Shown piece after piece: positions 8,152-51,484 of a DNA stretch of 64,000 bases (positions within the stretch are counted from its first letter, which is position 1; each line of letters starts with the position of its first letter). This DNA is from an uncultured Chloroflexota bacterium (GTDB taxonomy: Bacteria; Chloroflexota; Limnocylindria; Limnocylindrales; CSP1-4): positions 124,001 through 188,000 of the forward strand of contig CAIJPD010000052.1 in NCBI GenBank assembly GCA_903822495.1. The letters are read 5' to 3'. A program made the translations under genes and the position numbers. The notes below the pieces were generated by a model. The model did not search any database. It was not told the DNA's origin and was given only the letters and a program-made list of their open reading frames with translations.

Positions 8152-8198
8152 GTCATCAACCAAGCATCAGGCCCATCTCAACAGGAGGAAACGCATCC

Positions 8199-8453: not shown

Positions 8454-8463
8454 GACCCGCGGC

Positions 8464-10135: not shown

Positions 10136-10155
10136 CTCGGCGGCCCGGCAGCGGG

Positions 10156-10164
10156 TGCTATACT
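10156..10164 (+). promoter_or_regulatory. Extended -10 promoter for rplS
   Basis: TGCTATACT: an extended -10 (TGn) joined to TATACT at 10159-10164, 83 nt before the rplS start and just after trmD. No good -35 hexamer at 16-18 nt, as expected for an extended -10 promoter. The same box occurs before asd and, as TGCTACACT, before rpsB. Confidence 0.6.
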
Positions 10165-10246
10165 CCGACGTCGGTCGCCATGGGCGACGCCTTCCACCGT
10201 CCACGACGCAGCTCCACGCTGCCAGCAGCAGGTCAGGAATCGCCCC

Positions 10247-10597
10247 GTGAACGTCCTCGATGAGATCGTCGCCGATCAGCTCCGCACGGACCTCCCACAT
10301 CTCGCGTCCGGCGATACCGTGCGGGTCGCCGCACGTGTCGTCGAGGGGAACCGCGAGCGGATCCAGATGTTCGAAGGCACCGTGATGCGCCTTCGCGGCG
10401 GCGGGATCACCCGGTCCATCACCGTTCGGCGCATCGCCAGCGGCGTCGGCGTGGAGCGCACCTTCAAGATCAACAGCCCGCGCATCGACAAGATCGAGGT
10501 CGTTCGCCACGGCCAGGTCCGTCGTGCCCAGCTGTACTTCCTGCGCGACCGGGTTGGCAAGGCGGCCACCCTGCGCGAGCGGCGCCCCAAGCGCTAA
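10247..10597 (+). CDS. rplS: 50S ribosomal protein L19
   Basis: Large-subunit protein at the 30S/50S interface, 116 residues. Recognisable by [37 protein letters not shown] and [17 protein letters not shown] start with a modest AGGAA upstream. It has its own extended -10 promoter, so it can be transcribed independently of rimM-trmD. A hairpin in the following gap overlaps the rnhB ribosome-binding site. Confidence 0.97.
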
Positions 10598-10608
10598 CCC
10601 GCGCGGCG

Positions 10609-10640
10609 GCCTCCGTCCAGCCCTGCGCAGGGACGGAGGC
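10609..10640 (+). other. Hairpin covering the rnhB Shine-Dalgarno
   Basis: Perfect 10-bp inverted repeat: GCCTCCGTCC at 10609-10618 pairs with GGACGGAGGC at 10631-10640 across a 12-nt loop. The right arm contains the rnhB Shine-Dalgarno GGAGG (10635-10639), which folding would hide. There is no T tract, so it is unlikely to be a simple intrinsic terminator; processing or translational control is possible. Confidence 0.55.
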
Positions 10641-10643
10641 TCC

Positions 10644-11357
10644 GTGCCGATCCAGCCCACCCTCAGGTTTGAGCGGACGCTCTGGCGCGACGGGCTCGCC
10701 CGGATCGCCGGTGTCGACGAGGTGGGCGTAGCGCCCACGTGCGGCGCCGTCGTCGCCGCCGCTGTGATCCTGAGGCCGAACGCCCGGAAGATCCCGGGCG
10801 TTCGTGATTCCAAGACCCTGTCGGCGTCGCAGCGGGAGCGCCTCGCGCCGCTGATTCGCCAGCGTGCCGTGGCCATCGGCGTGGGTGCCGCGTCGGTTGC
10901 CGAGATCGACCGACTCAACATCTATCACGCCACCCACCTGGCGATGCGGCGCGCCATCGCTCGCCTGGGCGGCCATGACCATGTCCTCGTCGATGGGCTT
11001 CGGATCGCGGGCTTCGAGGAGGCGGTGGGCGGGTACACGGCCATCGTCGACGGCGATGCGCTGTGCTACTCCATCTCATGCGCGTCCGTGGTGGCCAAGG
11101 TGGTCCGGGACCGGATGATGGCTCGGCTCGCGCTTCGCTATCCCGGGTACGGCTGGGAGCGCAACCAGGGGTATGCCACGCGCGAGCATCGCGATGCCAT
11201 CCGGGCGCGCGGGCTGACGCCGTTTCACCGTCGCAGCTTCCTCGCCCTGCAGCGGACGCTTGCCGGGGAGCAGACGTCGCTCGGCCTCCTCGCCCAACCC
11301 GAGGACCCGTCGGGTGGTGGGATCGAGGCGGACGCCGAGGGACGCCTCCGGGCCTAG
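10644..11357 (+). CDS. rnhB: Ribonuclease HII (atypical active-site loop)
   Basis: Removes ribonucleotides from DNA and RNA-DNA hybrids. GTG at 10644 is chosen for GGAGG 4 nt upstream and for the correct N-terminus, giving 237 residues. Conserved features: catalytic D25-E26 in AGVDEVG, DSKTLSASQRERL, the LVDG aspartate, SCASVVAKVVRDRM and YPGYGWERNQGYATREHRDAIRARGLTPFHR. The usual DExGRG motif reads DEVGVA (residues 25-30): the Arg and second Gly of the GRG loop, which contact the RNA-DNA junction, are replaced by Val and Ala. The enzyme may be altered in substrate recognition; identity as an RNase HII homologue is secure. Confidence 0.93.
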   Translation: MPIQPTLRFERTLWRDGLARIAGVDEVGVAPTCGAVVAAAVILRPNARKIPGVRDSKTLSASQRERLAPLIRQRAVAIGVGAASVAEIDRLNIYHATHLAMRRAIARLGGHDHVLVDGLRIAGFEEAVGGYTAIVDGDALCYSISCASVVAKVVRDRMMARLALRYPGYGWERNQGYATREHRDAIRARGLTPFHRRSFLALQRTLAGEQTSLGLLAQPEDPSGGGIEADAEGRLRA

Positions 11358-21865: not shown

Positions 21866-23759
21866 GAGCGGCACGCGCGGCCGGCGCGGACCCCGCAAGC
21901 CGGTCCGGCGCGACGGCGCATTCGCGGGCGGCCAGGTCCAGTCGGGTGATTCGCGTGAGCGAAATGCGATCGAGCTCCCGACGACCATCACGGTCAAGGA
22001 GCTCGCCGAGGCGCTCAAGGTCAATCCCGCGGACATCATCCGCGAGCTGATCAAGAGCGGGATCTTTGCGACCATCAACCAGCTGATCGACCGCGACACG
22101 GCGTCCCTGGTCGCCGGCGAGCTCGGCTACGAGGTCGCGGAGGCGGCCGTCCCGGCGGCTCCCGGCTCGGCCGAGGCTTCCGGGTCGGATGGCGCCCCCG
22201 CGGCGGCCACCAAGGAAGACCTGTTCGAGGAGGACGACGCGTCCCTCCTGCTGCCGCGCGCGCCTATCGTCACGGTGATGGGTCACGTGGACCACGGCAA
22301 GACCAGCCTGCTCGACGCGATGCGCAGCACCACGGTTGCGGCAGGCGAGCGGGGTGGGATCACCCAGCACATCGGCGCCAGCGAGGTGGTCAAGGATGGC
22401 CGCCGCGTCGTCTTCCTCGACACCCCGGGTCACGAGGCGTTCACGGCGATGCGGGCCCGCGGCGCCAAGGTCACCGATATCGCGGTGGTCGTCGTGGCGG
22501 CGGATGACGGCGTCATGCCGCAGACGCTGGAGGCGATCAGCCACGCACGCGCGGCCAAGGTGCCGATCATCATCGCCCTGAACAAGATCGACAAGCCGGA
22601 CGCCAACCCGGACCGCGTCAAGAACGAGCTGTCCGAAGCGGGCGTGATCGTCGAGGAGTACGGCGGCGACACGCCCATGGTGCCCGTCTCGGCGCGCACC
22701 CGCGTTGGCCTGGACGCGCTGCTCGACATGATCCTGCTGGTTGCCGAGCTCCAGGAGCTCAAGGCCAATCCCAAGCGCGACGCCATCGGCACGATCATTG
22801 AGGCGGAGCTGGACAAGGGCCGAGGCGCTGTTGCCACGGTGCTCGTCCAGACCGGCACGTTGCGCGTCGGTGACACCATCGTGGTCGGCGACACGTCCGG
22901 CCGCGTCCGGGCCATGGAGAATGACCTCGGCAAGCGCGTGACGAAGGCTGGCCCGGCAACGGCCGTGGTTCTCCTTGGCCTTTCGGAGGTGCCTGCCGCG
23001 GGCGACATCCTGCGCGTGGTCAAGGACGAGAAAGCCGCGCGCGCCATGGTGGACGCCCGCAAGAACATCGCAGCCTCAAAGGCGGGCGAAGGCCCCGGAC
23101 GGGCGACGCTCGAGGACCTCTATCGGCAGATCCAGGCGGGTCAGGCCAAGGAGCTCCGGATCATCCTCAAGACGGATGTGTCCGGCTCCCTCGGGGCCAT
23201 CACGCACGCCCTGGACCAGCTCGACCAGGTCCAGGTCCGGATCAACGTCCTGCACCAGGGCGCGGGCGACATCACCGACAACGACATCCTGCTGGCGTCG
23301 GCATCCAACGCGATCGTGGTGGGCTTCAGCACGAGGATCACCGAGACCGCGCGTCGAGCCGCTGTCAGCGAGGGCGTTGACGTCCGCCTGTACGACATCA
23401 TCTACAAGCTGACCGACGACATCGAGAAGGCGCTCAGCGGCCTCCTCGAGCCGGAGATCATCGAGGTGGTCGAGGGTCGCGCCGAGGTCCGCAAGATCAT
23501 CCGCATCGGGCGGAATGCCATCGCCGGCTCGTACGTCACCGATGGTCGGCTCGTCCGGTCGAACGCCCGCGTCTGGCGCGGCGGCAAGATCATCGCCACC
23601 GACCGGATCGAGTCCCTGCGACGGTTCCGCGATGACGTACGCGAGGTCCAGAAGGACTTCGAGTGCGGTATCGGCCTCGCGAACTTCAACGATTTCGTCG
23701 AGGGCGACATCATCGAGGCGTTCAGCTCGCAGACGGTCAGTCGGTCGGCGCTCGGCTGA
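21852..23759 (+). CDS. infB: Translation initiation factor IF-2
   Basis: GTPase that brings fMet-tRNA to the 30S subunit and promotes subunit joining. GTG at 21852 has a clear AGGAGG upstream. The IF2-N domain ([25 protein letters not shown]) is followed directly by the G domain: [14 protein letters not shown] (about residues 143-156), [16 protein letters not shown] and NKIDKP. Domains II-IV follow. The 635-residue length lacks the long charged N-terminal region of many bacteria. Confidence 0.98.
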
Positions 23760-23775
23760 CCATGCGCCCAAATCG

Positions 23776-23809
23776 GATCACCGCGGGCCCCACGGGGCGC
23801 GCGGTGATC
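23776..23809 (+). other. infB-rbfA intergenic hairpin
   Basis: GATCACCGCG at 23776-23785 pairs with CGCGGTGATC at 23800-23809, with a GC-rich 14-nt loop. No T tract follows. It lies 27 nt before the rbfA ATG. Possible processing site or weak attenuator; no stronger evidence. Confidence 0.4.
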
Positions 23810-23835
23810 GCACGACCCCGGGGGGAGGGACGGCC

Positions 23836-24438
23836 ATGAGCCAGCGTACCGAGCGGATCGATGAGCTCCTCCGCCAGGAGATCACCGAGCTGCTCAGTCG
23901 ATCGGTCTCCGATCCGAGGATCGGCTTCGTGACGGTCACCCGGGTCGTCACGGCGCAGGATCTGTCCCATGCCAAGGTCTGGGTCAGCATCATCGGCCAG
24001 AGCGGGGAGCGCTCGGCCAGCCTCCATGCCCTGCGTGGGGCCATGCCCTACATCCGGCACCAGCTGGGCGATCGGGTTCGGCTCCGCCGCGTCCCGGACC
24101 TCCACGTGGAGCTGGATGACACGGCCGAGCGCGGGACGCGCGTCCTCCAGATTCTCCATGAGCTGGGCGAGGGTCGGATCCCCGATGATGGGCCCCTCCC
24201 GGGCGAGACCCTGCCGACACCCATCGCCCGCCTGCCACAGGACGGTGAGCCGGAGCACGCGCCCACGCCGGTCGTCAGCGCCCGGCGCCGGGCCACCGGT
24301 CCCCGGCCCACGGGAGCGGCCGGCAGCGGGCGCCCCCAGGGTCCCCAGGCGGGCACCAGGGGCGGCCCGTCCGATGGTCAGCGCAAGCCGGGTCCCAAGG
24401 GTTCGGAGCGGGGTGGCCGGGGCGCTCGTCCGGCATGA
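23836..24438 (+). CDS. rbfA: Ribosome-binding factor A
   Basis: 30S maturation factor (KH-like fold) acting on the 16S 5' helix. ERIDELLRQEITELLSRSVSDPRIGFVTVTRVV and RVPDLHVELDDTAERGTRVLQIL match the family. ATG 23836 is supported by GGGGGAGGGA. The conserved domain ends near residue 115; the remaining 85 residues form an unusual Pro/Gly/Arg-rich basic tail, likely disordered and RNA-binding. ATGA overlap with nrnA. Confidence 0.94.
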   Translation: MSQRTERIDELLRQEITELLSRSVSDPRIGFVTVTRVVTAQDLSHAKVWVSIIGQSGERSASLHALRGAMPYIRHQLGDRVRLRRVPDLHVELDDTAERGTRVLQILHELGEGRIPDDGPLPGETLPTPIARLPQDGEPEHAPTPVVSARRRATGPRPTGAAGSGRPQGPQAGTRGGPSDGQRKPGPKGSERGGRGARPA

Positions 24439-25451
24439 TCGACCTGGGGCCCTGGCTGCCGGACGTCCCGCCGGTCACGCTGGCGCGGATCCGATCGGCC
24501 CGGAGCGTCCTGGCCTTGACACACGAGAACCCGGACGCTGACACGATCGGGGCCGCGTTGGCGGTGGCTCGCCTGATCGAGGCCCAGGGCGGGCGGGCGT
24601 CCGTCGTGTGCACGGACCCCATCCCGCCGTTGTATGCGTTCATCCCGGGCGTGGGCGCCTTCCGGACGGACCCCGAGCCGGGCGTGACCTACGACCTGGT
24701 CGTGGTCTCGGACTGCGGCGACCTGGAGCGCACGGGCGCGGTGGCCCAGCGGAATCGTGCGCTCATCGCGTCCCTGCCGCGGGTGATCCTCGACCACCAT
24801 GCCTCCACTCGTTCCGTCGCCGACGCCGACTGGGTGGATGCCCATGCAGCCGCCACGTGCGAGCTGATCACGATCCTCGCCGTGCGGATGGGCATTCCCC
24901 TGACCGCGGCGGATGGTGCGCTGGCCGCGGCCCTCATGGCTGGCGTCGTCATGGACACGGCGACCTTCGCCCACCCGAACGCCACGCCGCGGACCCTGGC
25001 AGTCGCCGCTGCCCTCGTTGAGGCCGGCGCGCCCCTCTCGGACATCTCTCGCCGGCTGTACCGGACCAAGCCAACGGCCCAGCTGCACCTGTTTGGCCGG
25101 ATTCTCGACCGGATTTCGACCGCTGCCGGCGGCCGGATCGTCTACAGCACACTGCTGGAGCGTGACCTGGTGGCCACGGGCACCACGGCCGCCCAGTCCG
25201 AAGGATTGATCGACCTGCTGTCGCAGGCGGAGGAGGCGGACATCGCGATCCTGTTCAAGGAGGCCGGGGCTACCACCCGGATCAGTGTCCGCACCCGCCC
25301 GGGCGGCGTGGATGGCACCGTGCTCACCGGGACCTTCGGCGGGGGCGGGCATGCACGCGCCGCGGGCGCCACGGTCGAAGACACGCTCGAGGCCGCGCGT
25401 GCCGTGGTCCTTGCCGAGGCGGAGCGGCTGATCGCCGCTCTTGGCCACTGA
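24435..25451 (+). CDS. nrnA: DHH-family phosphoesterase, NrnA-like oligoribonuclease/pAp phosphatase
   Basis: Degrades short oligoribonucleotides and 3',5'-bisphosphate nucleotides (family knowledge). The DHH domain shows THENPDADTIGAAL, SDCGD, ILDHHAS and DTATF, the metal ligands; the DHHA1 domain ends with FGGGGHARAAGA. 338 residues, normal. It sits between rbfA and truB as in many Gram-positive-like genomes and may work with the PNPase downstream in finishing RNA decay. Confidence 0.92.
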   Translation: MIDLGPWLPDVPPVTLARIRSARSVLALTHENPDADTIGAALAVARLIEAQGGRASVVCTDPIPPLYAFIPGVGAFRTDPEPGVTYDLVVVSDCGDLERTGAVAQRNRALIASLPRVILDHHASTRSVADADWVDAHAAATCELITILAVRMGIPLTAADGALAAALMAGVVMDTATFAHPNATPRTLAVAAALVEAGAPLSDISRRLYRTKPTAQLHLFGRILDRISTAAGGRIVYSTLLERDLVATGTTAAQSEGLIDLLSQAEEADIAILFKEAGATTRISVRTRPGGVDGTVLTGTFGGGGHARAAGATVEDTLEAARAVVLAEAERLIAALGH

Positions 25452-25452
25452 G

Positions 25453-26442
25453 ATGGGCACACGTCGTGGCGTCGCTGACCTGGATGGCATCCTGGTCGTC
25501 GCCAAGCCGCCCGGCCCCACGTCGCACGATGTCGTGGCGCTGGTGAGACGGCTCTCGGGGACCCGCAGGGTGGGTCATGGCGGGACGCTGGATCCGTTCG
25601 CGGCTGGCGTGCTGCCGGTCTTCCTCGGCCGGGCAACGCGCCTCGTGGAGTACCACGCTTCGGATCGCAAGCAGTACCGGGCCACCATCTGCTTTGGGGC
25701 CATGTCCACGACGGACGATCCGGAGGGCGAGCTCACACCGGTGGGCGGCCCACGACTGACGCGCGACCTGGTGGAATCCGCCCTGGCCACCATGGTGGGC
25801 CCCATCTCACAGATGCCGCCGGCCTACAGCGCCCTCAAGATCGGCGGTCGCCGGGCCTACGCCATGGCCCGGGCCGGCGAGACGGTGACGCTGATGCCGC
25901 GCTCGGTCACGCTCGACCGGCTGGAGATGGTCGGCTGGGACCAGACTGATCCGGATCGTCCAATCGCCGTGGTCGACGTGGACTGCTCACCGGGGACGTA
26001 CGTCCGGGCGATTGCCCGAGACCTCGGTGCGGCGCTCGGCGGCGGCGCCTACCTCGGCGCGCTCTCCCGCATGGCGAGTGGCCCGTTCCGCCTGGAAGGC
26101 GCGATCGGTCTCGAGGAGCTTCGCGCGCTGGCGGCGACGCCCGCGTCGCTGGCGACACGGCTCCTCCCGATGGACGCGGGGCTGGAGGATCTGCCCACGG
26201 TGCAGCTCAATGACGCCGAGGTGGCCGATGTCACCTCCGGGCGATTCGTGCGCCCGACCGCCGGTCTTCCCGCCGGTGACCCGACGCAACCGGTCCGCAT
26301 CATGGACGGCGCGGGGCGGCTCGTCGCCATGGGCCTGCGGGCCGCCGGGCGGCTCGCGCCCACCAAGGTCCTGGTCGATGTCCCCGGCGCGCCGCCGCCC
26401 GGCGCGCGGCCCGCAGGCCCGACTCCGCCTGACGACGAATGA
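25453..26442 (+). CDS. truB: tRNA pseudouridine(55) synthase TruB
   Basis: Isomerises U55 in the T-loop of tRNAs. GHGGTLDPFAAGVLPV carries the catalytic Asp (D47 from this start); YRATICFG, PAYSALKIGGRRAY and CSPGTYVRAIARDLG follow. I use ATG 25453 right after the nrnA stop; a TTG at 25441 inside nrnA is a less likely start. 329 residues. Stop overlaps the ribF ATG. Confidence 0.95.
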   Translation: MGTRRGVADLDGILVVAKPPGPTSHDVVALVRRLSGTRRVGHGGTLDPFAAGVLPVFLGRATRLVEYHASDRKQYRATICFGAMSTTDDPEGELTPVGGPRLTRDLVESALATMVGPISQMPPAYSALKIGGRRAYAMARAGETVTLMPRSVTLDRLEMVGWDQTDPDRPIAVVDVDCSPGTYVRAIARDLGAALGGGAYLGALSRMASGPFRLEGAIGLEELRALAATPASLATRLLPMDAGLEDLPTVQLNDAEVADVTSGRFVRPTAGLPAGDPTQPVRIMDGAGRLVAMGLRAAGRLAPTKVLVDVPGAPPPGARPAGPTPPDDE

Positions 26443-27269
26443 TCGGCCGGACGATGGACGTTGTGGCCGGGATCGACGCCCTCCGGCCGGAGCTCGGCCG
26501 AGTCTTCTTTGCGGTCGGCGTCTTCGACGGGCTGCATCGGGGCCACTTGTACCTGCTGGAGCATCTCTTGCGGGCGTCCGCGGCCCACGGGGCTCGCGCC
26601 GGGGTGATCACCTTTGATGCCCATCCGGACGAGATCCTCGTCGGATCGGCACCCCCGCTCCTCGTTGATCCGGCGGAACGGCTGGCTCGCCTCGAGACGG
26701 CCGGTGTGGCGGTCACGGTCGTGCAGACCTTCGACGAGGCCCTTCGCAACACGACGTACGGGGACTTCGTCCGGCGGATCGCCGACCGGGTGGAGCTGGC
26801 TGGCTTCCTGATGACCCCCGACGCGGCCTTCGGGCACCGACGCGCGGGTACCCCGTCGGCCCTCGCGGACCTGGGCCTGGAGATGGGCTTCCAGGTCGAC
26901 GTGGTCCCAGTCCTGGGCGGTGACGCCGGCCCCATCCGCAGCTCCGAGATCCGTGCCGCGATCGCGGCCGGGGAGATCGATCGGGCCGCGGATCTCCTGG
27001 GTCGCGATGTCGCCCTGGTGGGCCGGGCATCAGAGGGCACCGACGCGAAGGCGACCGCCCTCCGCTTCGACTTGCCGGTGGCCATGCCGCCGGACGGGGC
27101 CTATCGCGTGCTGGTCGAGGTGGCCGGGGAGGACTATCCGCTCCGCCGACGACTCATCATCGACGGCGGCCAGGCGCGGCTGGAGCCCGCGGTGGGGGAC
27201 CATCCGACGGACCGCCTGCGGGTCAGGTTGCCCAACTCGCGTGGGCCTGCTACCATCCGCAAGTCATAG
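26439..27269 (+). CDS. ribF: RibF-type FAD synthetase with degenerate kinase domain
   Basis: The N-terminal nucleotidyltransferase (FMN adenylyltransferase) domain is recognisable: GVFDGLHRGHLYLL, TFDAHP, TPDAAFGHRRAG and PIRSSEIRAAIAAGEIDRAADLLGR. The C-terminal part, which should be riboflavin kinase (~125 residues), is only about 85 residues. It lacks the GxPTAN motif, keeping only a PDGAYRVLVEV-like strand. It may therefore adenylate FMN but not phosphorylate riboflavin. 276 residues; a second in-frame ATG lies 15 nt downstream. Confidence 0.85.
   Translation: MIGRTMDVVAGIDALRPELGRVFFAVGVFDGLHRGHLYLLEHLLRASAAHGARAGVITFDAHPDEILVGSAPPLLVDPAERLARLETAGVAVTVVQTFDEALRNTTYGDFVRRIADRVELAGFLMTPDAAFGHRRAGTPSALADLGLEMGFQVDVVPVLGGDAGPIRSSEIRAAIAAGEIDRAADLLGRDVALVGRASEGTDAKATALRFDLPVAMPPDGAYRVLVEVAGEDYPLRRRLIIDGGQARLEPAVGDHPTDRLRVRLPNSRGPATIRKS
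27228..27256 (+). promoter_or_regulatory. Promoter for rpsO-pnp
   Basis: TTGCCC (27228-27233), 17-nt spacer, TACCAT (27251-27256), with an extended TGC before the -10. It lies in the last codons of ribF, about 52 nt ahead of rpsO, letting rpsO-pnp be transcribed apart from the nusA operon. Confidence 0.6.
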
Positions 27270-40500: not shown

Positions 40501-42243
40501 ATGACCACCGAAGAGCTCCCGATCCCCGCCGACGATTCTTCGCCCCCGGATCTCGATCCCGCCACGGTTGACGGGCCGCGGACGGTCGGGCGCGTGATCG
40601 CCGAGGCGCTCCGCGCGGCGGGGGTCCGCTACGCCTTCACGGTGCCGGGGGAGAGCTTCCTCGGCCTCCTCGAGGGCCTGGCCGCGGCGGGGATTCGTGT
40701 CATCGCCGCCCGTCACGAGGGCGCCGCCGCGTTCATGGCCGAGGCCCATGGCCAGCTGACCGGGCGACCCGCGGCCGTGATCGGCACGCGGGCGGTGGGC
40801 GCGGCCAACATGAGCATCGGCATCCACACGGCATTCGCCGATTCCACACCCATGTTCGTGCTGGTCGGCGGCGTCGACCGTCCGTTCCGCGGCCGTGAGG
40901 CCTTCCAGGAGGTCGACCAGGTCGCGACCTTTGGCGCCCTCGCCAAGTGGGCGGTGGAGCTGGACGCGGCCGGAGACGTGGCCGCGACGATGGAGATCGC
41001 GGTCGCCCACGCCCTCGGCGGACGCCCCGGCCCGGTCCTGATCTCCATGCCGGAAGATCTCCTCGACGAGATCGTCCCGGGCGGGGCCATCGCGATCACC
41101 CGGCCGTCACGCCGTGCGGGCGTTTCCGACGACCAGGTCCGCGGCGTGTTGCAGCTGCTGGCATCCGCGGAGCGACCGGTGATCCTCGCCGGCGGCGGTG
41201 TCCTGCGCGCGCGCTGCTCCAACGACCTGCTCCGTCTTGCCGAGCTCCTGCACGTCCCGGTGGTCGCCGCCTGGCGGCGCGGCGACGTGGTCCCCAACGA
41301 CAACCCGCTCTATCTCGGCATGACCGGCTACGGGTCACCGGCCGTGCTCCGGGAGCGCCTGGCTCGGGCGGACGCGATGCTGGTCATCGGTTGCCGGCTG
41401 AACGAGATTGCCTCCCACCAGTGGACCATTCCGGCCGCGGTGACGCGCTGGGCGCACGTGGACATCGCCCCCGCCCGGCCCTCGCCGACGCTGTCGGCCG
41501 CGGACATCACGGTCGAGGCGGACGCCAAGGTCTTCCTTCGGGCCGCGGTCTCGCGGCTCGAGAAGTCCGTGCTGCTGGCCGGACTCGTGGCAGCCCGGGA
41601 CGAGCACAACGATCATGACCGCGCGGCGTGGGAGGCCGCCACGGTGGTGGACCAGGCGCCGTGGGATGGCCCCGGGGTCCACCCGGGCCGGGTGATCGCC
41701 GCGCTCGGTCGCGTGCTGCCGGAGACGGCCATCCTCACCACTGACGCCGGAAGCTTCGCCGGCTGGGCGGCGCGTGGCTATCGGTTCCGTCGGCCGGGAA
41801 CCTTCCTCGGGCCCACCTCCGGGGCCATGGGCTACGGCCTGCCCGCAGCCATCGCGGCGGCGCTGGTCCACCGGGACCGGCCGGTCGTCGCCCTGACCGG
41901 TGACGGCGGGATGGGCATGACGCTGGCGGAGCTGGAGACGGCGGTGCGCGAGGGCGCGAAGGTGATCGCCGTGGTCTTCGACAACCAGCAGTACGCGATG
42001 ATCCGGCGCTACCAGGACGCGCGTCCCGGCGCGGCCGCGATCGCGACCGACCTCGGGCCAATCGACTTCGCCGCGGTGGCGCGGGCCCAGGGCGCGCGCG
42101 GCATCCGCGTCGAGACCGACGCCGCGTTCGAGCCCGCCCTGCGCCAGGCCCTCTCCCACGACGGGCCGACCCTGCTCCATCTCATCGTGGATCGGCGCTG
42201 GAACTCCGTCGACCTGGCGGCCACGGGGCCGGCCGATGCCTGA
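40501..42243 (+). CDS. Thiamine-diphosphate-dependent enzyme, acetolactate-synthase-like
   Basis: 580 residues with the three domains of the AHAS/pyruvate oxidase family. The PYR domain has RYAFTVPGESFLGLLEGL carrying the catalytic Glu, and RHEGAAAFMAEAHGQLTGRPA. The central domain has ERPVILAGGGVLRA. The PP domain has GAMGYGLPAAIAAAL and the ThDP/Mg motif GDGGMGMTLAELETAV ending DNQQYAMIRRYQ. No regulatory subunit or ilv gene is adjacent, so a catabolic role (2-oxoacid decarboxylase or carboligase) is as likely as branched-chain synthesis. TAGGAG precedes the ATG. Confidence 0.85.
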   Translation: MTTEELPIPADDSSPPDLDPATVDGPRTVGRVIAEALRAAGVRYAFTVPGESFLGLLEGLAAAGIRVIAARHEGAAAFMAEAHGQLTGRPAAVIGTRAVGAANMSIGIHTAFADSTPMFVLVGGVDRPFRGREAFQEVDQVATFGALAKWAVELDAAGDVAATMEIAVAHALGGRPGPVLISMPEDLLDEIVPGGAIAITRPSRRAGVSDDQVRGVLQLLASAERPVILAGGGVLRARCSNDLLRLAELLHVPVVAAWRRGDVVPNDNPLYLGMTGYGSPAVLRERLARADAMLVIGCRLNEIASHQWTIPAAVTRWAHVDIAPARPSPTLSAADITVEADAKVFLRAAVSRLEKSVLLAGLVAARDEHNDHDRAAWEAATVVDQAPWDGPGVHPGRVIAALGRVLPETAILTTDAGSFAGWAARGYRFRRPGTFLGPTSGAMGYGLPAAIAAALVHRDRPVVALTGDGGMGMTLAELETAVREGAKVIAVVFDNQQYAMIRRYQDARPGAAAIATDLGPIDFAAVARAQGARGIRVETDAAFEPALRQALSHDGPTLLHLIVDRRWNSVDLAATGPADA

Positions 42244-44195: not shown

Positions 44196-45356
44196 ATGCC
44201 CGTCATCACCGGCGTCGAGACCCTCCGCGTCGCGCTCCCAACCCGGCGCGTCCACAAGTGGACCGGCCTGACCGAGCCCATCGGGCGACCATTGCTGGTC
44301 CGCCTGACCGACGACGCGGGCAACGTGGGCTGGGGCGAGGCGCCGGCCTCCAAGGACTGGGGCGGGGAGTTCGGCCGCTACTTCGGCGAGAGCCCGTCGA
44401 CCGTCGCCGAGGTGATCAGCTCGTACCTCGCCAAGGCCGTGGTGGGCGTCGAGGTGGGCAACCTGGGCGATCTGCACCGGCGGATGGACCTGATGATCAA
44501 GGGGCATCCGTACGCCAAGGCGGCGCTCGACATCGCGGCCTGGGACCTGGCCGGTCGGGCTGCCGGGCTGTCGGTCACCCAGCTCCTGGGTGGGCGCGTC
44601 CGGGATCGCATCGCCATCACGCACTCCATCGGCCTGATGTCCCTGGAGGAGGCGGCCGCGGAGGCCGAGCTGCTGGCGGCGGAGGGCGTGCGCGCCATCA
44701 AGGTCAAGGTGGGGGTGGACCCGGAGCGCGACATCGCCGTCGTGAAGGCCGTGCGGCGCGCCGCCGGCGAGAAGGTCGAGATCTGCATCGACGCCAACGA
44801 GGGCTGGCGGACGCCGGGCGAGGCGATCCGCGTGGTCCGGGCGCTGGCCGACGTCCGGCTGAAGTATGTCGAGCAGCCGGTCATGGGGATCGATCGGCTG
44901 GCCCAGGTGGCCCGCGCGATCGACGAGCCGGTCATGGCCGACGAATCCGCGTGGAACGCCCACGACGTCCTCCAGATCATCGAGAAGCAGGCGGCCCAGA
45001 TCGTCTCCATCTACACGACCAAGCCCGGCGGCCTCTACCGCGCCCTCCAGGTCGCCGCCGTGTGCAAGGCGGCCGGGATCGTGTGCAACGTGAACGGCAG
45101 TATCGAGACGGGCGTTGGCAACCTCGCCAACGTCGCGCTGGCGGCCGTGGCAGAGGTGGCCGAGCTGGGCTGCGTCATCCCCGTCTCCCGGCCGGCGCAG
45201 TTCGCCGACGGCCGGATCGGCGGCATCTACTACACCGATGACCTGCTCCGCGAGGCATTCCGCTTCGAGGACGGGTACGTGGCCGTCCCCGACGGGCCCG
45301 GGTTCGGGATCGCCGTAGACGAGGCCAAGATCGACCACTATCGGCTGGTCGAGTAG
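44196..45356 (+). CDS. Enolase-superfamily enzyme, muconate-lactonizing (MLE) subgroup
   Basis: 386 residues of mandelate racemase/muconate lactonizing type. Catalytic KxK pair K169/K171 in RAIKVKVG; metal ligands D199 (DAN), E226 (EQP) and E250 (ADES); opposite Lys K276 in TTKPGGL. This KxK...K layout is the MLE/dipeptide epimerase/OSBS pattern, not the mandelate racemase one. Likely abstracts an alpha proton for epimerisation or cycloisomerisation; substrate unknown. SIETGVGN near residue 302 closes the barrel. First gene of a seven-gene same-strand operon. Confidence 0.87.
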   Translation: MPVITGVETLRVALPTRRVHKWTGLTEPIGRPLLVRLTDDAGNVGWGEAPASKDWGGEFGRYFGESPSTVAEVISSYLAKAVVGVEVGNLGDLHRRMDLMIKGHPYAKAALDIAAWDLAGRAAGLSVTQLLGGRVRDRIAITHSIGLMSLEEAAAEAELLAAEGVRAIKVKVGVDPERDIAVVKAVRRAAGEKVEICIDANEGWRTPGEAIRVVRALADVRLKYVEQPVMGIDRLAQVARAIDEPVMADESAWNAHDVLQIIEKQAAQIVSIYTTKPGGLYRALQVAAVCKAAGIVCNVNGSIETGVGNLANVALAAVAEVAELGCVIPVSRPAQFADGRIGGIYYTDDLLREAFRFEDGYVAVPDGPGFGIAVDEAKIDHYRLVE

Positions 45357-45410
45357 CCAGTCGGTCACGCCGCCCGCGCCGGCCCCGCAACCACCGTACC
45401 CGGAGACCCC

Positions 45411-46553
45411 ATGCGACCCGAGATCATCGCCCGGCAGGCCGCCGCCATCCGTGCCCACGGCCTCGATGCCCTCATCTCCTGCTCGCCCGAGAACTTCGCC
45501 TACGCCACGGGCTTCGTGGTGCCGTCCCAGCCACTGATCCGGCACCGCCATGCGATGGCCATCGTGACGGCGGACGGCGACGTGAGCCTGTTTGGGGTGG
45601 ACATGGAGGCGTCCACGATCGCCCGCCAGGCGCCGGGTGTGCCCGCGACGATCTGGAAGGAGTTCTCCGACGACCCCATGCGGATCCTCGCGACCCGCCT
45701 GACCGTGCTGGGCCTGGCCGGCTCCCGGATCGGGATCGAGCTGGATTACCTGCCGGCCGGCGACTTCGCCCGGCTCACGTGGCTCATGCCCAACGCCAGC
45801 TTCGAGGCCGGCGAGGGCATTCTGGCCCGGCTCCGCCAGATCAAGACGCCCGACGAGATCGCCCTCCTCCGACGGCTCTCGCGGATCGCCGACCAGGCGA
45901 TCACGGATGCGCTGGCGGCCGTCCGGACCGGCGACAGCGAGCTGGACATCGCCGGGCACCTGACCCGCAACGTCTATTCGCTGGGTGCCGAGCACTTCAA
46001 GCTCCTGATCATCGCCACCGGCGACCGGAGCCGGCTGCCCAACGTCGGACCGTCGGAGCGGCGTCTGGAGCCGAGGGACGTCTGCCGGGTGGAGATCTTC
46101 TCCGTCATGGGCGGCTACCAGGCGGGCGTCTGTCGGACCGCGGTCGTGGAGCAGGCACCGCCCATGGCCGACGAGATCTGGGCCCACCTCGTGGAGGCCA
46201 AGTACCGGATCATGGCGATGGTCAAGCCCGGCGCCTCCTGCCTGGCGATCTACGACGCCTTCATCGCCCACCTGGCCAGGAAGAACCTTCCGCCCATCTC
46301 GTTTGTGGGCCACGGCATCGGGCTGCATCTCCACGAGGACCCATACCTGGGCCGGACGCCCATCCTGGGCAAGCCCGGCGAGGACGCGATGCTGGAGGAG
46401 GGGATGGTCCTGGGCTTCGAGCCGCTCTGCTACGAGACCGGCTACGGATTCGGGATGCAGAACAAGGACATGCTGGTGGTCACCGCGGACGGCAGTGAGC
46501 TGCTGAGCGACTACGCCAACACGGACCGGCTGCTGGTCGTCCAGGGCCGCTAG
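45411..46553 (+). CDS. M24 (creatinase/aminopeptidase P fold) protein lacking the metal site
   Basis: 380 residues with an N-terminal creatinase_N domain (LISCSPENFAYATGF) and a C-terminal pita-bread domain (VGHGIGLHLHEDP). Canonical metal residues are largely replaced: the PH motif reads PN (N211), the two Asp ligands are E228 and G239, and the final Glu is N351; H301 and E337 remain. M24 members without metal include creatinase and ectoine hydrolase, so a C-N hydrolase on a small molecule is more likely than a peptidase. Second gene of the operon, 54 nt after the first. Confidence 0.82.
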   Translation: MRPEIIARQAAAIRAHGLDALISCSPENFAYATGFVVPSQPLIRHRHAMAIVTADGDVSLFGVDMEASTIARQAPGVPATIWKEFSDDPMRILATRLTVLGLAGSRIGIELDYLPAGDFARLTWLMPNASFEAGEGILARLRQIKTPDEIALLRRLSRIADQAITDALAAVRTGDSELDIAGHLTRNVYSLGAEHFKLLIIATGDRSRLPNVGPSERRLEPRDVCRVEIFSVMGGYQAGVCRTAVVEQAPPMADEIWAHLVEAKYRIMAMVKPGASCLAIYDAFIAHLARKNLPPISFVGHGIGLHLHEDPYLGRTPILGKPGEDAMLEEGMVLGFEPLCYETGYGFGMQNKDMLVVTADGSELLSDYANTDRLLVVQGR

Positions 46554-46589
46554 GAAGGCCCGACGGGCCGATGGGGAGGGAGACCAGGG

Positions 46590-48035
46590 ATGGCCGCACC
46601 GACGAAGACGCTCATCGAGCATCTCGACTTCGCGCTGACGGTGGACGCCCACGACACGGCCCTGCGCGACGCATCGGTCGTGGTGGAGGGTGACCGGATC
46701 GCCGACGTGGGCCCGGCCGCGGCAGTGGCGTCCCGGCGTGCCGGCGAGGCCTACGACCGCGTGATCGACGGGCGGATGCTGGGGATGACGCCGGGCTTCG
46801 TGGACACCCACGTCCACCTCTCGGAGATGCTCTCCCGCGCGGTCTTCCCGGACCTCGTCAACACGCGCGCCTGGGTCTTCCACTGGGCCAAGCCGTTCTA
46901 CGCGGCCGTGGACGACGAGGACGAGTACGTCAGCGCCAAGCTGTGCATCACCGAGATGCTCCGGTCGGGGACGACCGCGTTCCTGGACATGGGAGCGCAG
47001 AACGATCCGGGGGTCGTCCTCCGGGCCATGGCGGAGCTGGGGATGCGCGGCGTCACCGGCCGCCACGCGGCCGATGTCCGGCCCACGGAGCTGCCGCGGG
47101 GCTGGACCGAGGAGATGGTGGACCACCACTTCTTCCCGGACGCGGCCACCGCGCTGCGCGAGTTGCGGGCGACCGTGGAGCGGCATGGCACGGCGCCGAA
47201 CGGCGGACTCGCGCGCGTCTGGGTGAACATCGAGGGCAAGGAGCCCTGCTCGCTTGAGCTGCATGTCGGCGCGCGCGCCCTGGCGGAGGAGCTGGGCGTG
47301 GGGACGACCTACCATCTGACCACCTCCATCGAGGAGGCGCGCGTCTCGGAGCGCAAGCACGGGATGTGGCCGATCAGCCGGATCGAGGCGGCCGGCGGCC
47401 TGGGCCCCAACCTCGTGATCGCCCACTGCGTGGCGGTGGCCGATCACGAGGTGGAGACGCTCCGCCGCCACGGGACCAAGGTGGCGTTCTGTCCGGGCTC
47501 CGCGCTCAAGTTGGCCAAGGGTGCGGCCAACATCGGCAAGTACCCGGAGATGGTTCGCGCCGGCGTGACGGTGGGCCTGGGCACGGACGGGGTCTCGGCG
47601 TCGGGCAACATGAACCTGATGCGCCAGCTGTACGTCATGGCCGGGATGTTCAAGGACGCCCGGATCGACCCGGAGGCCTTCACGGCCCGCGAAGCCCTTC
47701 GGGCCGCCACGATCGACGGGGCGACGGCGCTCCTGTGGGACCAGGAGATCGGGTCGCTGGAGGTGGGCAAGAAGGCGGACTTCGTGCTCTTCGACCTCGA
47801 CCACATCGAGTGGACGCCGTTCCACGATCCGCTCCAGGCGCTGGTGTTCTCCGCGTCGTCCGCGTCCATCGCAGAGACGTGGGTCAACGGCGTCGCACTC
47901 TACCGCGACGGCGCCGTTCAGGGCGTGGACGAGCGGGCGCTCCGGGTCGAGTCCAGGCAGCGCGCGGCGGCAGCGGTGCGACGCGCCGGCCTGGCGGACG
48001 AGGGCGTGCCCATCAAGACCACGCTCTACGACTGA
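46590..48035 (+). CDS. Amidohydrolase, TRZ/ATZ deaminase-like
   Basis: 481-residue metal-dependent hydrolase of the amidohydrolase superfamily. PGFVDTHVHLSEM (H74, H76), the YHLTTSIEE His, IAHCV and GTDGVSASGNMNL give the mononuclear TRZ/ATZ-type site; the C-terminal composite beta domain has GSLEVGKKADFVLFDL. Relatives deaminate or dechlorinate cyclic N-containing compounds (adenosine, guanine, s-triazines). Substrate here unknown. The neighbours are two other hydrolase/isomerase families and an opine dehydrogenase 10 nt downstream. Confidence 0.87.
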   Translation: MAAPTKTLIEHLDFALTVDAHDTALRDASVVVEGDRIADVGPAAAVASRRAGEAYDRVIDGRMLGMTPGFVDTHVHLSEMLSRAVFPDLVNTRAWVFHWAKPFYAAVDDEDEYVSAKLCITEMLRSGTTAFLDMGAQNDPGVVLRAMAELGMRGVTGRHAADVRPTELPRGWTEEMVDHHFFPDAATALRELRATVERHGTAPNGGLARVWVNIEGKEPCSLELHVGARALAEELGVGTTYHLTTSIEEARVSERKHGMWPISRIEAAGGLGPNLVIAHCVAVADHEVETLRRHGTKVAFCPGSALKLAKGAANIGKYPEMVRAGVTVGLGTDGVSASGNMNLMRQLYVMAGMFKDARIDPEAFTAREALRAATIDGATALLWDQEIGSLEVGKKADFVLFDLDHIEWTPFHDPLQALVFSASSASIAETWVNGVALYRDGAVQGVDERALRVESRQRAAAAVRRAGLADEGVPIKTTLYD

Positions 48036-48045
48036 GGAGGCGACG

Positions 48046-49125
48046 ATGCGAGTGGCGCTCCTGGGCGCCGGCGCGGGGGGCGCCTCCGCGGTCGCCGAGC
48101 TCACGCAGGCAGGCCACGAGGTCCGCTGGTGGGCCCGGCGGGACGAGACCCTGGACCCGTTCCGGGCGATGGGCGGCGTTCGCCACGAGGGGCTGCTGGG
48201 GACCGGGCTGGCGGTGCCTGGGCTGATGACGTCGGATATGGCACAGGCCATGCGGGATGCGGACGTGGCGGTGGTCTCCCTGCCCACCTTCTCGCACGGC
48301 CCCATCGCGCGCGCCATGGCGGCCGCAGGGTGGCCGGTCGGCATGCCGATCGTGCTGAACCCCGGGCACACCGGTGGTGCGCTGGAGTTCTGCCACGCCT
48401 GGGGACCGGCGGGGCTCCCCCCCGTGGCCGAGCTCTCCACGCTCACGTACGTGGCACGCAAGCTGGCCCCCGGCAGCGTGACGATCAGCGGCCACGCCCG
48501 AACCGTGCGCGTCGCCGGCCTGCCGGGCTCCGGTGCCGCCGTGTCCGCGGCCCAAGCGCTCTTTCCATCCGCATCACCGGTGCCGGACGTGATCGCCTCC
48601 GGGCTCTCGAACGTCAACCTGGTGCTCCACCCGCCGGGCGCGATCATGGCGGCCGCGTGGGTCGAAGGGACCGGGGGCGACTTCACGTTCTATGTCCAGG
48701 GGATGACACCGGGTGTCGGCCGCGTCCTGGAAGCGCTCGATGTCGAGCGCCTCGCCGTGGCCGCGGCATTTGGCCATCGGCTACCCAACCTGCTCGAGGA
48801 GATGCGCGCGATCGGGACCGTGGAGCCCGAGACTCCCTCGGACACGCCCTTCGCCCAGGCCATCGCCGCCGCCGAGGCCAACCGCTTCATCAAGGCGCCC
48901 GGCTCCTTCGAGCACCGCTACTACCGCGAGGACTTCGGGCACTGCGTGCTCGCGTTCACGGAGATCGCGGCGATCGCGGGGGTCCCGGTCCCGGTCGCCG
49001 ACAGCCTCTTCACCATCGCGGAACACCTGCTGGGTGGGGACCTGCGGGCTCGCGGGAGGACCGCCGAGGTCATGGGGATCGCCGGACTGACTCGCGACCA
49101 GCTGGAGCGGAAGGTGCGCGGATGA
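48046..49125 (+). CDS. NAD(P)-dependent octopine/nopaline (opine) dehydrogenase family
   Basis: 359 residues. Rossmann start RVALLGAGAGGASAVAELTQAGHEV; middle part VVSLPTFSHGPIARAMA; C-terminal opine dehydrogenase domain with SNVNLVLHPPGAIM and the FEHRYYREDFGHCVLAF region. Family members make or oxidise N-(carboxyalkyl) amino acids. In this operon an oxidative, catabolic direction is plausible. GAGGAGG precedes the ATG; ATGA overlap with the next gene. Confidence 0.85.
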   Translation: MRVALLGAGAGGASAVAELTQAGHEVRWWARRDETLDPFRAMGGVRHEGLLGTGLAVPGLMTSDMAQAMRDADVAVVSLPTFSHGPIARAMAAAGWPVGMPIVLNPGHTGGALEFCHAWGPAGLPPVAELSTLTYVARKLAPGSVTISGHARTVRVAGLPGSGAAVSAAQALFPSASPVPDVIASGLSNVNLVLHPPGAIMAAAWVEGTGGDFTFYVQGMTPGVGRVLEALDVERLAVAAAFGHRLPNLLEEMRAIGTVEPETPSDTPFAQAIAAAEANRFIKAPGSFEHRYYREDFGHCVLAFTEIAAIAGVPVPVADSLFTIAEHLLGGDLRARGRTAEVMGIAGLTRDQLERKVRG

Positions 49126-50087
49126 CGGACGGAGGCTTGGACGTGTCCATGGCCACCACAGAGCCCACCGCGTCCGTCGTGGACTGGCCCGGCCTGGTCA
49201 TCGCCATGGTGGGCGGGGACCGACGCGAGCAGGAGATTGCCCGCCAGGCCGTGGCCACCGGCGCAACGGTTCGGGCCTATGCCATCCCGTACCCGGACGA
49301 GGGCATCCCGGGGCTGATCCGGGCCGGCTCGTTCGCCGAGGCCCTGGCGGGTGCGGACATCGCGCTCTTCCCCATCCCGGGGATCGCCCCGGATGGTGCA
49401 CTCCACGCCCCCGCAGCGGCTCCGGAGCGGGTCATCCCCACGCGCGCCGCCCTCGCCGGCATGCGCGCGCCGGCCCACATCATCCTGGGTTGGGCCGATG
49501 CCAACCTGAACGGGCACTGTGACGCGCTCGGGATCCAGCGCCACGAGTACGAGTGGGACCGGGAGCTGATGCTCCTGCGGGCCCCGGCGATCATCGAGGG
49601 CATGCTCCGGCTCATGATCGAGCGCACGGACATCACGATCCACCGCGCGCGGGTGGTGCAGGTCGGCCAGGGGGCGATCGGGGCGCTGGCCACCAGGGCG
49701 CTGATCTCCCTGGGGGCCCGCGTCCACGTCGTGGCCAGGAGCGGCGAGCAACGGGCCGCCGCCATGGCGGCGGGCGCCGAGGCGAGCCCGCTCGAGGCGC
49801 TGGCCGACCTGCTGCCCACCGCCGACATCGTCCTCTCCACCATCCCGGCCCGGCTGCTGGTCCGGCCGCTGCTCGACCGCGTCAACCCGCGTGCACTCGT
49901 CATCGATCTTTCGTCGCCGCCGGGCGGCGTGGACTGGGACGCGGCGAAGGAGCTGGGCCTGAACGCCGTGTGGGGCCGCGCCCTCGGCAACCGGGCGCCG
50001 ATCACCGTGGGTCGGTCCCAGTGGGGCGGCATCCGCGCTCGAATCGAGGCCATCGTGGCCGCACGCACCGGGGACCCGGCCCGCTAG
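49122..50087 (+). CDS. Dipicolinate synthase subunit A (DpaA/SpoVFA)-like oxidoreductase
   Basis: 321 residues with an N-terminal domain VIAMVGGDRREQEIARQAVATGA like that of DpaA, and an NAD(P)-binding VVQVGQGAIGALATRALISLGARVHVVAR followed by LPTADIVLSTIPARLLV. DpaA normally makes dipicolinate in endospore formers together with DpaB. No DpaB or spore gene is here, so this is probably a paralogous oxidoreductase acting on a cyclic imino-acid or opine-like intermediate. ATG 49122 overlaps the previous stop; ATG 49149 is an alternative. Confidence 0.75.
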   Translation: MTDGGLDVSMATTEPTASVVDWPGLVIAMVGGDRREQEIARQAVATGATVRAYAIPYPDEGIPGLIRAGSFAEALAGADIALFPIPGIAPDGALHAPAAAPERVIPTRAALAGMRAPAHIILGWADANLNGHCDALGIQRHEYEWDRELMLLRAPAIIEGMLRLMIERTDITIHRARVVQVGQGAIGALATRALISLGARVHVVARSGEQRAAAMAAGAEASPLEALADLLPTADIVLSTIPARLLVRPLLDRVNPRALVIDLSSPPGGVDWDAAKELGLNAVWGRALGNRAPITVGRSQWGGIRARIEAIVAARTGDPAR

Positions 50088-50127
50088 GCTGTCGTCAACA
50101 CAGCCGCAACCCAAGGAGGACAGTCCC

Positions 50128-50322
50128 ATGCCCATCGTGATCGTCGAGATGTGGGAAGGCCGGACGGTCGACCAGAAGCGCAACCTGATCAAGGCGCTGA
50201 CCGACGCGATGGTGGAGCACGCCGCCTGCACCCCGGACCACCTCCACGTCGTGATCCACGAGATCAAGAAGGAGAACTGGGGCCGGAACGGGGAGATCTC
50301 CATCGACGCGGTGAAGAAGTGA
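50128..50322 (+). CDS. 4-oxalocrotonate tautomerase family protein
   Basis: 64-residue tautomerase with Pro2 (catalytic N-terminal proline after Met removal) and EGRTVDQKRNLIKALTDAM. Family enzymes interconvert enol and keto forms of unsaturated 2-oxoacids. AAGGAGGA before the ATG. GTGA overlap with the VOC gene. Its presence suggests that the operon pathway passes through a 2-hydroxy-dienoate or enol-pyruvate-like intermediate (inference). Confidence 0.9.
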   Translation: MPIVIVEMWEGRTVDQKRNLIKALTDAMVEHAACTPDHLHVVIHEIKKENWGRNGEISIDAVKK

Positions 50323-50699
50323 GCGACGAGCGCGCCCGCGGGCACGTCCAGACCTACGGGCACTGCCTGATCATGGTCCAGGACATCGAGGTGTCCAAGC
50401 CGTTCTACGTGGACCTCCTGGGCTTCTCGGTCCGCCAGTACACGCCGGCATCTTCGGGTCGGGCGTTCCTGGCCTTCACCCAGGGGATTGCGCTCACGGA
50501 CGGACGCGCCGAGGGCCACAAGCAGATCGACCACATCGCGTGGGAGGTCGACGACGTGCGCGTCCTGAGCGATCGCCTGCAGGCCGCCGGGGTCAGCTTC
50601 TTCAACGAGCTTCACGATGGGCCGTACGGTCTGACCATCTACGTGGCCGATCCGGATGGGACCAAGGTCGAGCTCTACCAGGTGGGCGCCAAGGTCTGA
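50319..50699 (+). CDS. Glyoxalase/VOC (dioxygenase-like) family protein
   Basis: 126-residue vicinal-oxygen-chelate protein with HCLIMVQDIEVSKPFYVDLLGF and IDHIAWEVDDVRVL, ending GLTIYVADPDGTKVELYQVG: two beta-alpha-beta-beta-beta modules with His/Glu metal ligands. Could be an extradiol-dioxygenase-type or isomerase-type enzyme. GTG start overlapping the tautomerase stop. Last clear member of the operon. Confidence 0.85.
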   Translation: MSDERARGHVQTYGHCLIMVQDIEVSKPFYVDLLGFSVRQYTPASSGRAFLAFTQGIALTDGRAEGHKQIDHIAWEVDDVRVLSDRLQAAGVSFFNELHDGPYGLTIYVADPDGTKVELYQVGAKV

Positions 50700-50752: not shown

Positions 50753-51484
50753 GTGCGCGTGGCCACATCTCGCTTCACGGGCTTCCGGCCCGAGGCCATC
50801 CAGCTTCTCGTCGAGCTGGGCGCCAACAACGATCGGGCATGGTTTGCCCGACGCAAGGCGGACTACGAGCGATTCCTCAAGGAGCCGCTCGAGTCGTTGT
50901 GCGTGTCCCTCGCCGAGCGCTGTACCGACCGCGGCCTGCCATTCCAGGCGGATCCCAAGCGGTCGCCGTTCCGCTTCTACCGCGATACCCGGTTCAGCAA
51001 GGACAAGTCGCCGTACAAGACCCACGTCGGGGCGAGCTTCCCGTACCTCGGTGCGGACGGGCTGGCATCGACCGCGGGCGATGCCGCGGTCGATGCGCCA
51101 GCGGATGGCCTGCGTGGGAACGGTGGCTACTTCAGCTTCGGCCCCGGGGAGATCGTTGTCGGGGGCGGGATGTATGACCCCGGCAAAGAACGGCTGGCGC
51201 GATTCCGGTTGCTGGTGGCCCACCAACCCGACCGTGTCCGCGCCGCCCTCGACGATCCCGGCTTCGTTCGCGAGTTCGGCGCGGCCTACGCACTGGAGTC
51301 CTTGAAGCGCGTCCCGCCTGGTCTCCCGTCGGACCACCCGATGGCAGAGCGGCTGCGCTGGAAGGACGTCGTCTTCATCCGCAACCTGTCCGATGAGGAG
51401 GCGTTCTCCCCGGCACTGCCCGACACGCTGGCCGATGCCTATGCCGCCGCGCTGCCGGTCTTCCGGTTCCTGTCCAGCCTCTAA
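50753..51484 (+). CDS. DUF2461 family protein
   Basis: 243-residue protein of unknown function; family signature RFYRDTRFSKDKSPYKTHVGASF, GGYFSFGPGEIVVGGGMYDP and DHPMAERLRWKDVVF. Two adjacent GTG codons (50753, 50759) are possible starts; the longer open frame upstream is a shadow of the VOC gene. A weak hairpin at 51510-51526 (CCGGGA/TCCCGG) lies in the convergent gap that follows. Confidence 0.87.
   Translation: MRVATSRFTGFRPEAIQLLVELGANNDRAWFARRKADYERFLKEPLESLCVSLAERCTDRGLPFQADPKRSPFRFYRDTRFSKDKSPYKTHVGASFPYLGADGLASTAGDAAVDAPADGLRGNGGYFSFGPGEIVVGGGMYDPGKERLARFRLLVAHQPDRVRAALDDPGFVREFGAAYALESLKRVPPGLPSDHPMAERLRWKDVVFIRNLSDEEAFSPALPDTLADAYAAALPVFRFLSSL

Follow-up and report, generated by a model that had tools for sequence, protein, structure and literature searches.

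The window analyzed herein, a 64,000-nucleotide stretch of DNA from an uncultured Chloroflexota bacterium, belongs to a metagenome-type assembly of 3.6 Mb (89.7% complete), and carries seven intact open reading frames on the plus strand at positions 44196-50699. As assigned by Pfam matches above the gathering score, these encode an enolase-superfamily enzyme of the MLE subgroup (g1, 44196..45356; MR_MLE_N/C), a creatinase-like M24 protein with a lost metal site (g2, 45411..46553; Creatinase_N and Peptidase_M24), a TRZ/ATZ-branch amidohydrolase without the deaminase glutamate (g3, 46590..48035; Amidohydro_1), an opine-dehydrogenase-family enzyme (ODH; g4, 48046..49125; Octopine_DH, PF02317), a DpaA_N plus Rossmann protein (g5, 49122..50087; DpaA_N), a 4-oxalocrotonate-tautomerase-family (4-OT) protein (g6, 50128..50322; Tautomerase), and a VOC metalloprotein with a GTG start (g7, 50319..50699; Glyoxalase). 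The family names given to the seven genes in an earlier sequence-only reading were in agreement with Pfam and NCBIfam, apart from the TRZ/ATZ and DpaA qualifications described below, and its gap range of -4 to 54 nt exactly matched the measured gaps (54, 36, 10, -4, 40, and -4 nt from g1 to g7, with 4-nt overlaps at g4/g5 and g6/g7). That reading had also considered that independent promoters between the genes would speak against a single operon; neither a sigma-70-like promoter on the plus strand nor a terminator was found inside it. As the reading stated, no transporter is included in the window operon, unlike the related clusters described below, which possess NMT1-type or BMP-type ABC importers. 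The operon also has no regulator, its flanking genes are unrelated or housekeeping, and the gene immediately downstream encodes a DUF2461 protein. The gene for a TPP enzyme at 40501-42243 was ruled out as an operon member, since opposite-strand genes intervene.

All seven genes were found in the same order, with 89-99% identity, in a congener (G004), and both flanks of the operon are syntenic between the two genomes. The seven genes are under purifying selection, with dN/dS values between the window and this congener ranging from 0.026 to 0.133. The G+C content of the operon (70.9%) was close to that of the window (71.1%), and there was therefore no compositional sign of recent import. In G004, approximately 3.2 kb of extra DNA including an apparent transposase gene lies just upstream of the enolase gene.

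The active-site residues of g1 to g7 were then considered, with their roles assigned from general family knowledge. In g1, the MLE-subgroup residues are intact, namely the KxK motif, the D/E/D metal ligands, and the second Lys across the barrel, and the catalytic residues are kept across the cluster orthologues with the exception of the copy in genome G298. The metal-ligand positions of g2 are occupied by E, G, H, E, and K versus the D, D, H, E, and E expected for M24 proteins, and this ligand loss bore out the previous description of the window protein as metal-less. The same replacements occur in the rhizobial copies and in that of G064, a genome from the window's family; the copies in a distant Chloroflexota genus, g81, keep the D, D, H, E, and E ligands intact. 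Against the equivalog model of the ectoine hydrolase DoeA/EutD, g2 scored 75.8 bits, below the cut-off of 613. Alignment of g3 with 3hpa and among its orthologues revealed that it keeps the metal residues HxH, His, His, and Asp, like other TRZ/ATZ-branch enzymes such as atrazine chlorohydrolase, 8-oxoguanine deaminase, and 3hpa. Unlike these enzymes, g3 and all its cluster orthologues have Thr or Ser at the position of the HxxE glutamate, HLAE being replaced by HLTT, HLAT, or HIAS in every orthologue covering the region, and all scores of g3 against the NCBIfam TRZ/ATZ models were far below the cut-offs. The earlier designation as a TRZ/ATZ amidohydrolase thus held at the level of the branch but not at that of these models, and g3 is predicted to lie within the TRZ/ATZ branch but outside its deaminases, because the HxxE glutamate is missing. 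AlphaFold2 models of g2 and g7 built from two-row alignments gave a mean pLDDT of approximately 35 and were discarded.

The assignment of g4 to the opine dehydrogenase family was confirmed by a PF02317 score of 118.2 bits (gathering score, 30). Its closest solved relative is CENDH from Arthrobacter (1bg6), with which, as with the octopine and nopaline dehydrogenases, it shares the fold family over its full length and conserved His and Asp positions, which make up the catalytic pair in CENDH. In contrast to these enzymes, g4 falls in a separate, cluster-tied clade and is coupled to a DpaA-like protein. This partner, g5, resembles the dipicolinate synthase subunit A (SpoVFA/DpaA) in having a DpaA_N domain (58 bits) followed by an NAD(P)-binding domain. 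It does not, however, belong to the DpaA family proper, since its equivalog scores were below the cut-offs (162.9 versus 319.65 for TIGR02853; 181.4 versus 261 for PRK08306). No gene for the DpaB flavoprotein was found among the seven operon genes, and the DpaA-like protein P0005 is approximately 26-28% identical to plasmid-borne Firmicute DpaA. The term DpaA-like used in the sequence-only reading was therefore appropriate for the domain, but neither the equivalog scores nor a DpaB neighbour identified g5 as the synthase subunit itself. The tautomerase and VOC calls were upheld by the Pfam scores. The tautomerase g6 scored just above the TIGR00013 cut-off and possesses Pro-1 and Arg-11, with His at the position of Arg-39, and g7 keeps the metal residues His, His, and Glu, which are shared by the rhizobial copies and by most of those from g81.

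The spread of the cluster outside Chloroflexota was judged from plasmid records, as the search of genome contigs matched only the congener G004. Orthologues of the ODH and DpaA-like genes with approximately 58-61% identity (59-61% for g5) were found in 14 plasmid records from Aminobacter, Shinella, and Phyllobacterium, among which are Shinella sp. HZN7, Aminobacter sp. MSH1, and Phyllobacterium zundukense. Thirteen of these records also carry the M24 (76-77%), enolase (63-64%), and full-length g3 (70-72%) genes, and the fourteenth, pAA03, begins at a truncated g3 and has only half of it. The inspected clusters are arranged as enolase, M24, g3, ODH, DpaA-like, a hydantoinase-like amidohydrolase (AHS2), a protein that matched no Pfam family, 4-OT, and isochorismatase, the last being a fusion whose C-terminal half is orthologous to the g7 VOC protein (58% identity). 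All seven window genes are hence present on the plasmids in the same order, on one strand, and with overall identities of approximately 58-77%, and the short overlaps between the ODH and DpaA-like genes and between the 4-OT and VOC-bearing genes recur there. In three Aminobacter copies, genes for a D-amino acid dehydrogenase, malate synthase G, and HbpS are inserted between g3 and the ODH gene. In Neorhizobium, a luciferase-like monooxygenase gene was seen near g3.

In the class, represented by 177 genomes, strong matches to the DpaA-like protein were restricted to the window's genus. In five inspected g81 genomes, the 4-OT, VOC, M24, enolase, ODH, and DpaA-like genes occur together with a cytosine-deaminase-like gene, and reading of the wider region in two of them (G307 and G237) revealed the isochorismatase, AHS2, and g3 orthologue (57%) on the opposite strand at a distance of approximately 11 kb; g81 thus carries a rearranged complete set of the seven genes. 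Partial sets were found elsewhere. Genome G064 has the M24, enolase, and ODH genes alongside an isochorismatase-like gene and genes for an importer resembling the NMT1 type, and also the 4-OT and VOC genes; it has neither g3 nor the DpaA-like gene, in whose place an EutC/BhcD-related protein of the ornithine-cyclodeaminase family adjoins 4-OT. In G232, which has a BMP-type importer, the enolase and ODH genes stand on either side of a luciferase-like monooxygenase gene, and in G298 the enolase gene is adjoined by HyuA and HyuB; luciferase-like monooxygenases lie near cluster genes in G232, G298, and G064. Enolase and ODH were the most constant pair across the lineages. In one draw of 400 genomes, the enolase orthologue was present in 11, the DpaA-like gene in 9, and both in 8, which corresponds to hypergeometric probabilities of 1e-13 per genome, the genomes not being independent, and 0.0012 per genus.

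Every window gene was closer to its rhizobial copies than to those of g81 or G064. In an ODH tree, the cluster ODHs of both phyla were separated from 14 other Chloroflexota ODHs with a support of 89/80, a grouping recovered in 90% of bootstrap trees though with long branches, and the window and rhizobial enzymes were joined at 100/100 in this long-branched tree. Judging from these sequence relationships, the gene block most likely moved horizontally between the phyla. Taken together, the conservation across phyla supports the view that the seven genes constitute one catabolic-type unit, in line with the earlier description of a single catabolic-looking operon and with the gene-neighbourhood co-occurrence that it had proposed to check.

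The fuller clusters additionally contain an amidohydrolase resembling hydantoinase/allantoinase and an isochorismatase resembling RutB, as well as a cytosine-deaminase-like protein, RidA, GntR, ABC importers, and enzymes that use glyoxylate. The best scores were those for allantoinase/D-hydantoinase in AHS2 and those for RutB and biuret hydrolase in the isochorismatase, all below the equivalog cut-offs. These companions, together with HyuA/HyuB and the luciferase-like proteins, suggest a cyclic ureide, amidine, or pyrimidine-like ring as the substrate. Glyoxylate is also suggested as a product, since malate synthase G was present in all three Aminobacter clusters inspected and g81 has a hydroxypyruvate-isomerase-like gene. 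Several observations argue against the ureide reading. The hydantoinase-like, RutB-like, and cytosine-deaminase-like genes are absent from the window operon, and candidates on other contigs of the window genome reach identities of only 28-42%, the AHS2-like and isochorismatase-like ones (36-42%) lying near xanthine-dehydrogenase-type genes as named by eye. The companions differ between lineages, so the substrates may differ as well; the lack of the DpaA-like gene and g3 in G064 and the variation in tautomerase Arg-39 and in M24 chemistry likewise weigh against it. Creatinine catabolism, considered on account of the co-occurring creatinase-, cytosine-deaminase-, and carbamoyl-hydrolase-like genes, was rejected as it leaves the enolase, ODH, DpaA-like, 4-OT, and VOC proteins unexplained.

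With these points weighed, we tentatively consider the seven genes to be the core genes of a catabolic cluster, shared by horizontal transfer, for a cyclic ureide/amidine N-heterocycle or an opine-like acid bearing one. From the observed gene content, order in two phyla, selection, and mostly intact catalytic residues, and from the association elsewhere with importers and with genes of the hydantoinase/allantoinase-like and RutB-like kinds, we infer the substrate as well as each step and the order of the steps as follows. The compound would be taken up via an ABC importer encoded outside the operon. The g2 M24 protein, a proposed ring-opening C-N hydrolase, and the amidohydrolases (g3, and the hydantoinase-like one in the fuller clusters) would together carry out the ring opening and strip off the amidine or urea moiety, with the RutB-like hydrolase clearing the carbamoyl group. 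The enolase-superfamily enzyme g1, as a putative epimerase/dehydratase of an N-substituted amino acid, could together with the tautomerase and VOC protein invert a stereocentre or shift protons on this amino acid or an enol. Finally, g4 coupled to g5, its proposed redox partner, would perform NAD(P)-dependent redox chemistry at the C-N bond, yielding an amine together with a 2-oxoacid, for which glyoxylate is a plausible candidate. The hydrolysis, C-N redox, and enol/2-oxoacid chemistry of the sequence-only reading fits the families, but the companions favour a cyclic ureide or amidine over the plain opine. An undescribed, horizontally shared pathway of Chloroflexota and soil- and root-associated Alphaproteobacteria for ureide- or amidine-bearing opine-like compounds, with a two-protein ODH/DpaA-like redox step and a glutamate-less TRZ/ATZ-branch hydrolase whose reaction would be unlike those of its relatives, is a reading to which we give a little less than even weight.

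By analogy, the logic of the cluster most resembles that of ectoine/hydroxyectoine utilisation, which comprises epimerisation, imine reduction, and M24 ring opening (PMC5924519), combined with hydantoin degradation. As in the ectoine clusters (EutABCDE, DoeA), a metal-less-type M24 hydrolase, an epimerase, and NAD(P)-dependent redox genes are brought together, and the ornithine-cyclodeaminase-family protein of G064 resembles EutC; in contrast, an enolase replaces the EutA racemase, EutE is missing, and the amidohydrolases, ODH, 4-OT, and VOC protein have no counterpart there. As in hyu clusters, the fuller relatives possess hydantoinase-like and carbamoyl-hydrolase-like genes, between whose steps an enolase-type racemase would fit. 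An epimerase role of g1 at this point is plausible because NSAR-type enolase-superfamily enzymes racemise N-carbamoyl amino acids (PMC7431475). The window operon itself is not a hyu cluster, since the hydantoinase and carbamoylase genes, both present in the rhizobial and g81 relatives, are missing; moreover, the carbamoyl hydrolase is of the RutB/isochorismatase type, and ODH, DpaA-like, and M24 proteins are foreign to hyu clusters. The dihydropyrimidinase/D-carbamoylase loci of Aminobacter were set aside as small hyu-type loci, the parts of the source consulted making no mention of the core genes (PMC3546935).

In the open-access literature searched, no description of the cluster or gene combination was found, in accordance with the earlier remark that the combination was not recognised as a known pathway, and neither "opine" nor "hydantoin" occurs in the Aminobacter MSH1 genome paper. 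We regard the cluster as a genuine pathway that is shared between lineages, is assembled from known families of enzymes, and is, provisionally, undescribed. Its conservation ties seven enzymes without an assigned role to one pathway, and does so also in Shinella sp. HZN7, Aminobacter sp. MSH1, and Phyllobacterium zundukense, in which the substrate is approachable by growth and knockout tests. Were the substrate identified, a DpaA-like family that is not part of sporulation, an ODH clade, and an amidohydrolase clade lacking the deaminase residue would each gain a function, and a nitrogen compound that serves bacteria in both phyla would come to light.

Plain opine catabolism, in which the hydrolases would first strip a lactam or amide, the enolase enzyme would act as epimerase on an N-carboxyalkyl amino acid, and the ODH would cleave the latter oxidatively, is the alternative that survives best, although we consider it unlikely. 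It is in agreement with the proximity of g4 to CENDH, the conserved His and Asp positions, the constancy of the enolase/ODH pair, and the rhizobial hosts; however, the hydantoinase-, RutB-, and cytosine-deaminase-like and HyuA/HyuB companions would be left unexplained, and ODH enzymes usually operate in the reductive direction in vivo.

It is improbable that the cluster serves ectoine-like compatible-solute use, in which epimerisation of a cyclic amidine carboxylate would be followed by its reduction as a cyclic imine and then by ring opening through the M24 protein. Such a sequence would follow the EutA/EutC/EutD logic (PMC5924519), with which the lost M24 metal ligands and the EutC/BhcD-related protein at the DpaA place in G064 are consistent, but the M24 score is far below the EutD/DoeA cut-offs, the window operon has no EutE, aminotransferase, or AsnC-type gene, and the hydantoinase-like genes are unaccounted for.

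Slightly less probable still is a biosynthetic cluster, in which the ODH and DpaA-like proteins would couple an amino acid to a 2-oxoacid, forming an opine- or dipicolinate-like product such as a metallophore. ODHs are often biosynthetic and the DpaA_N domain is present; nevertheless, the related clusters contain hydrolases of three types along with GntR-type regulators, importers, and enzymes that consume glyoxylate, no exporter or synthetase is present, and the equivalog scores of the DpaA-like protein are sub-threshold, all of which argues against biosynthesis. A chance neighbourhood of unrelated metabolic genes, to which the missing regulator and transporter and the unrelated or housekeeping flanks might have pointed, is highly improbable and is contradicted by the identical order of the seven genes in two phyla, their rearranged set in g81, and their near-perfect co-occurrence on the plasmids.

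Direct evidence that the cluster can move was provided by the Aminobacter aminovorans plasmid pAA03 (locus L068; coordinates here and below are local to each locus), because the cluster segment is bracketed by two copies of a TniQ/TniB/Mu-type transposase gene set (5137-8492 and 23444-26799) sharing identical protein accessions, and one of its ends is a truncated g3, the TRZ/ATZ-branch amidohydrolase gene. In the congener G004, which carries all seven genes, a probable transposase gene lies immediately 5' of the operon (L097, about 9950-11350); the window has none at that position. Directly 3' of the operon, a DUF2461 gene on the same (+) strand (window 50753-51481) was found to adjoin it in both the window and G004.

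L071 (18113-19102) and other rhizobial clusters encode a single protein that combines an isochorismatase with a VOC domain, and its VOC half is orthologous to g7 of the window. The g3 orthologue of Neorhizobium sp. EC2-8 (L099, 14998-16438), adjoining luciferase-like monooxygenase and dihydroorotate-dehydrogenase-like genes, is spread over three frames, reflecting either a broken gene or a sequencing error.

In G064, a genome of the window's family lacking the DpaA-like gene, the 4-OT gene adjoins one for a member of the ornithine cyclodeaminase/mu-crystallin family (L093, 16525-17715); this protein, a relative of BhcD and of the ectoine-utilisation protein EutC, is a possible functional stand-in for the absent one. 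A distant DpaA-like protein (30% identity) in G317 (L092, 8062-9015, - strand) is another non-sporulation member, in a gene set different from that of the cluster; by eye, its neighbours comprise genes for a DapA-like protein and for LigA/LigB-like dioxygenases, together with a branched-chain-type ABC importer.

Further groups of xanthine-dehydrogenase-type, allantoinase-like and cytosine-deaminase-like genes, recognised partly by eye on contigs C66 and C18 of the window's own genome, G000 (L117 and L121), suggested a broader use of N-heterocycles by this organism.
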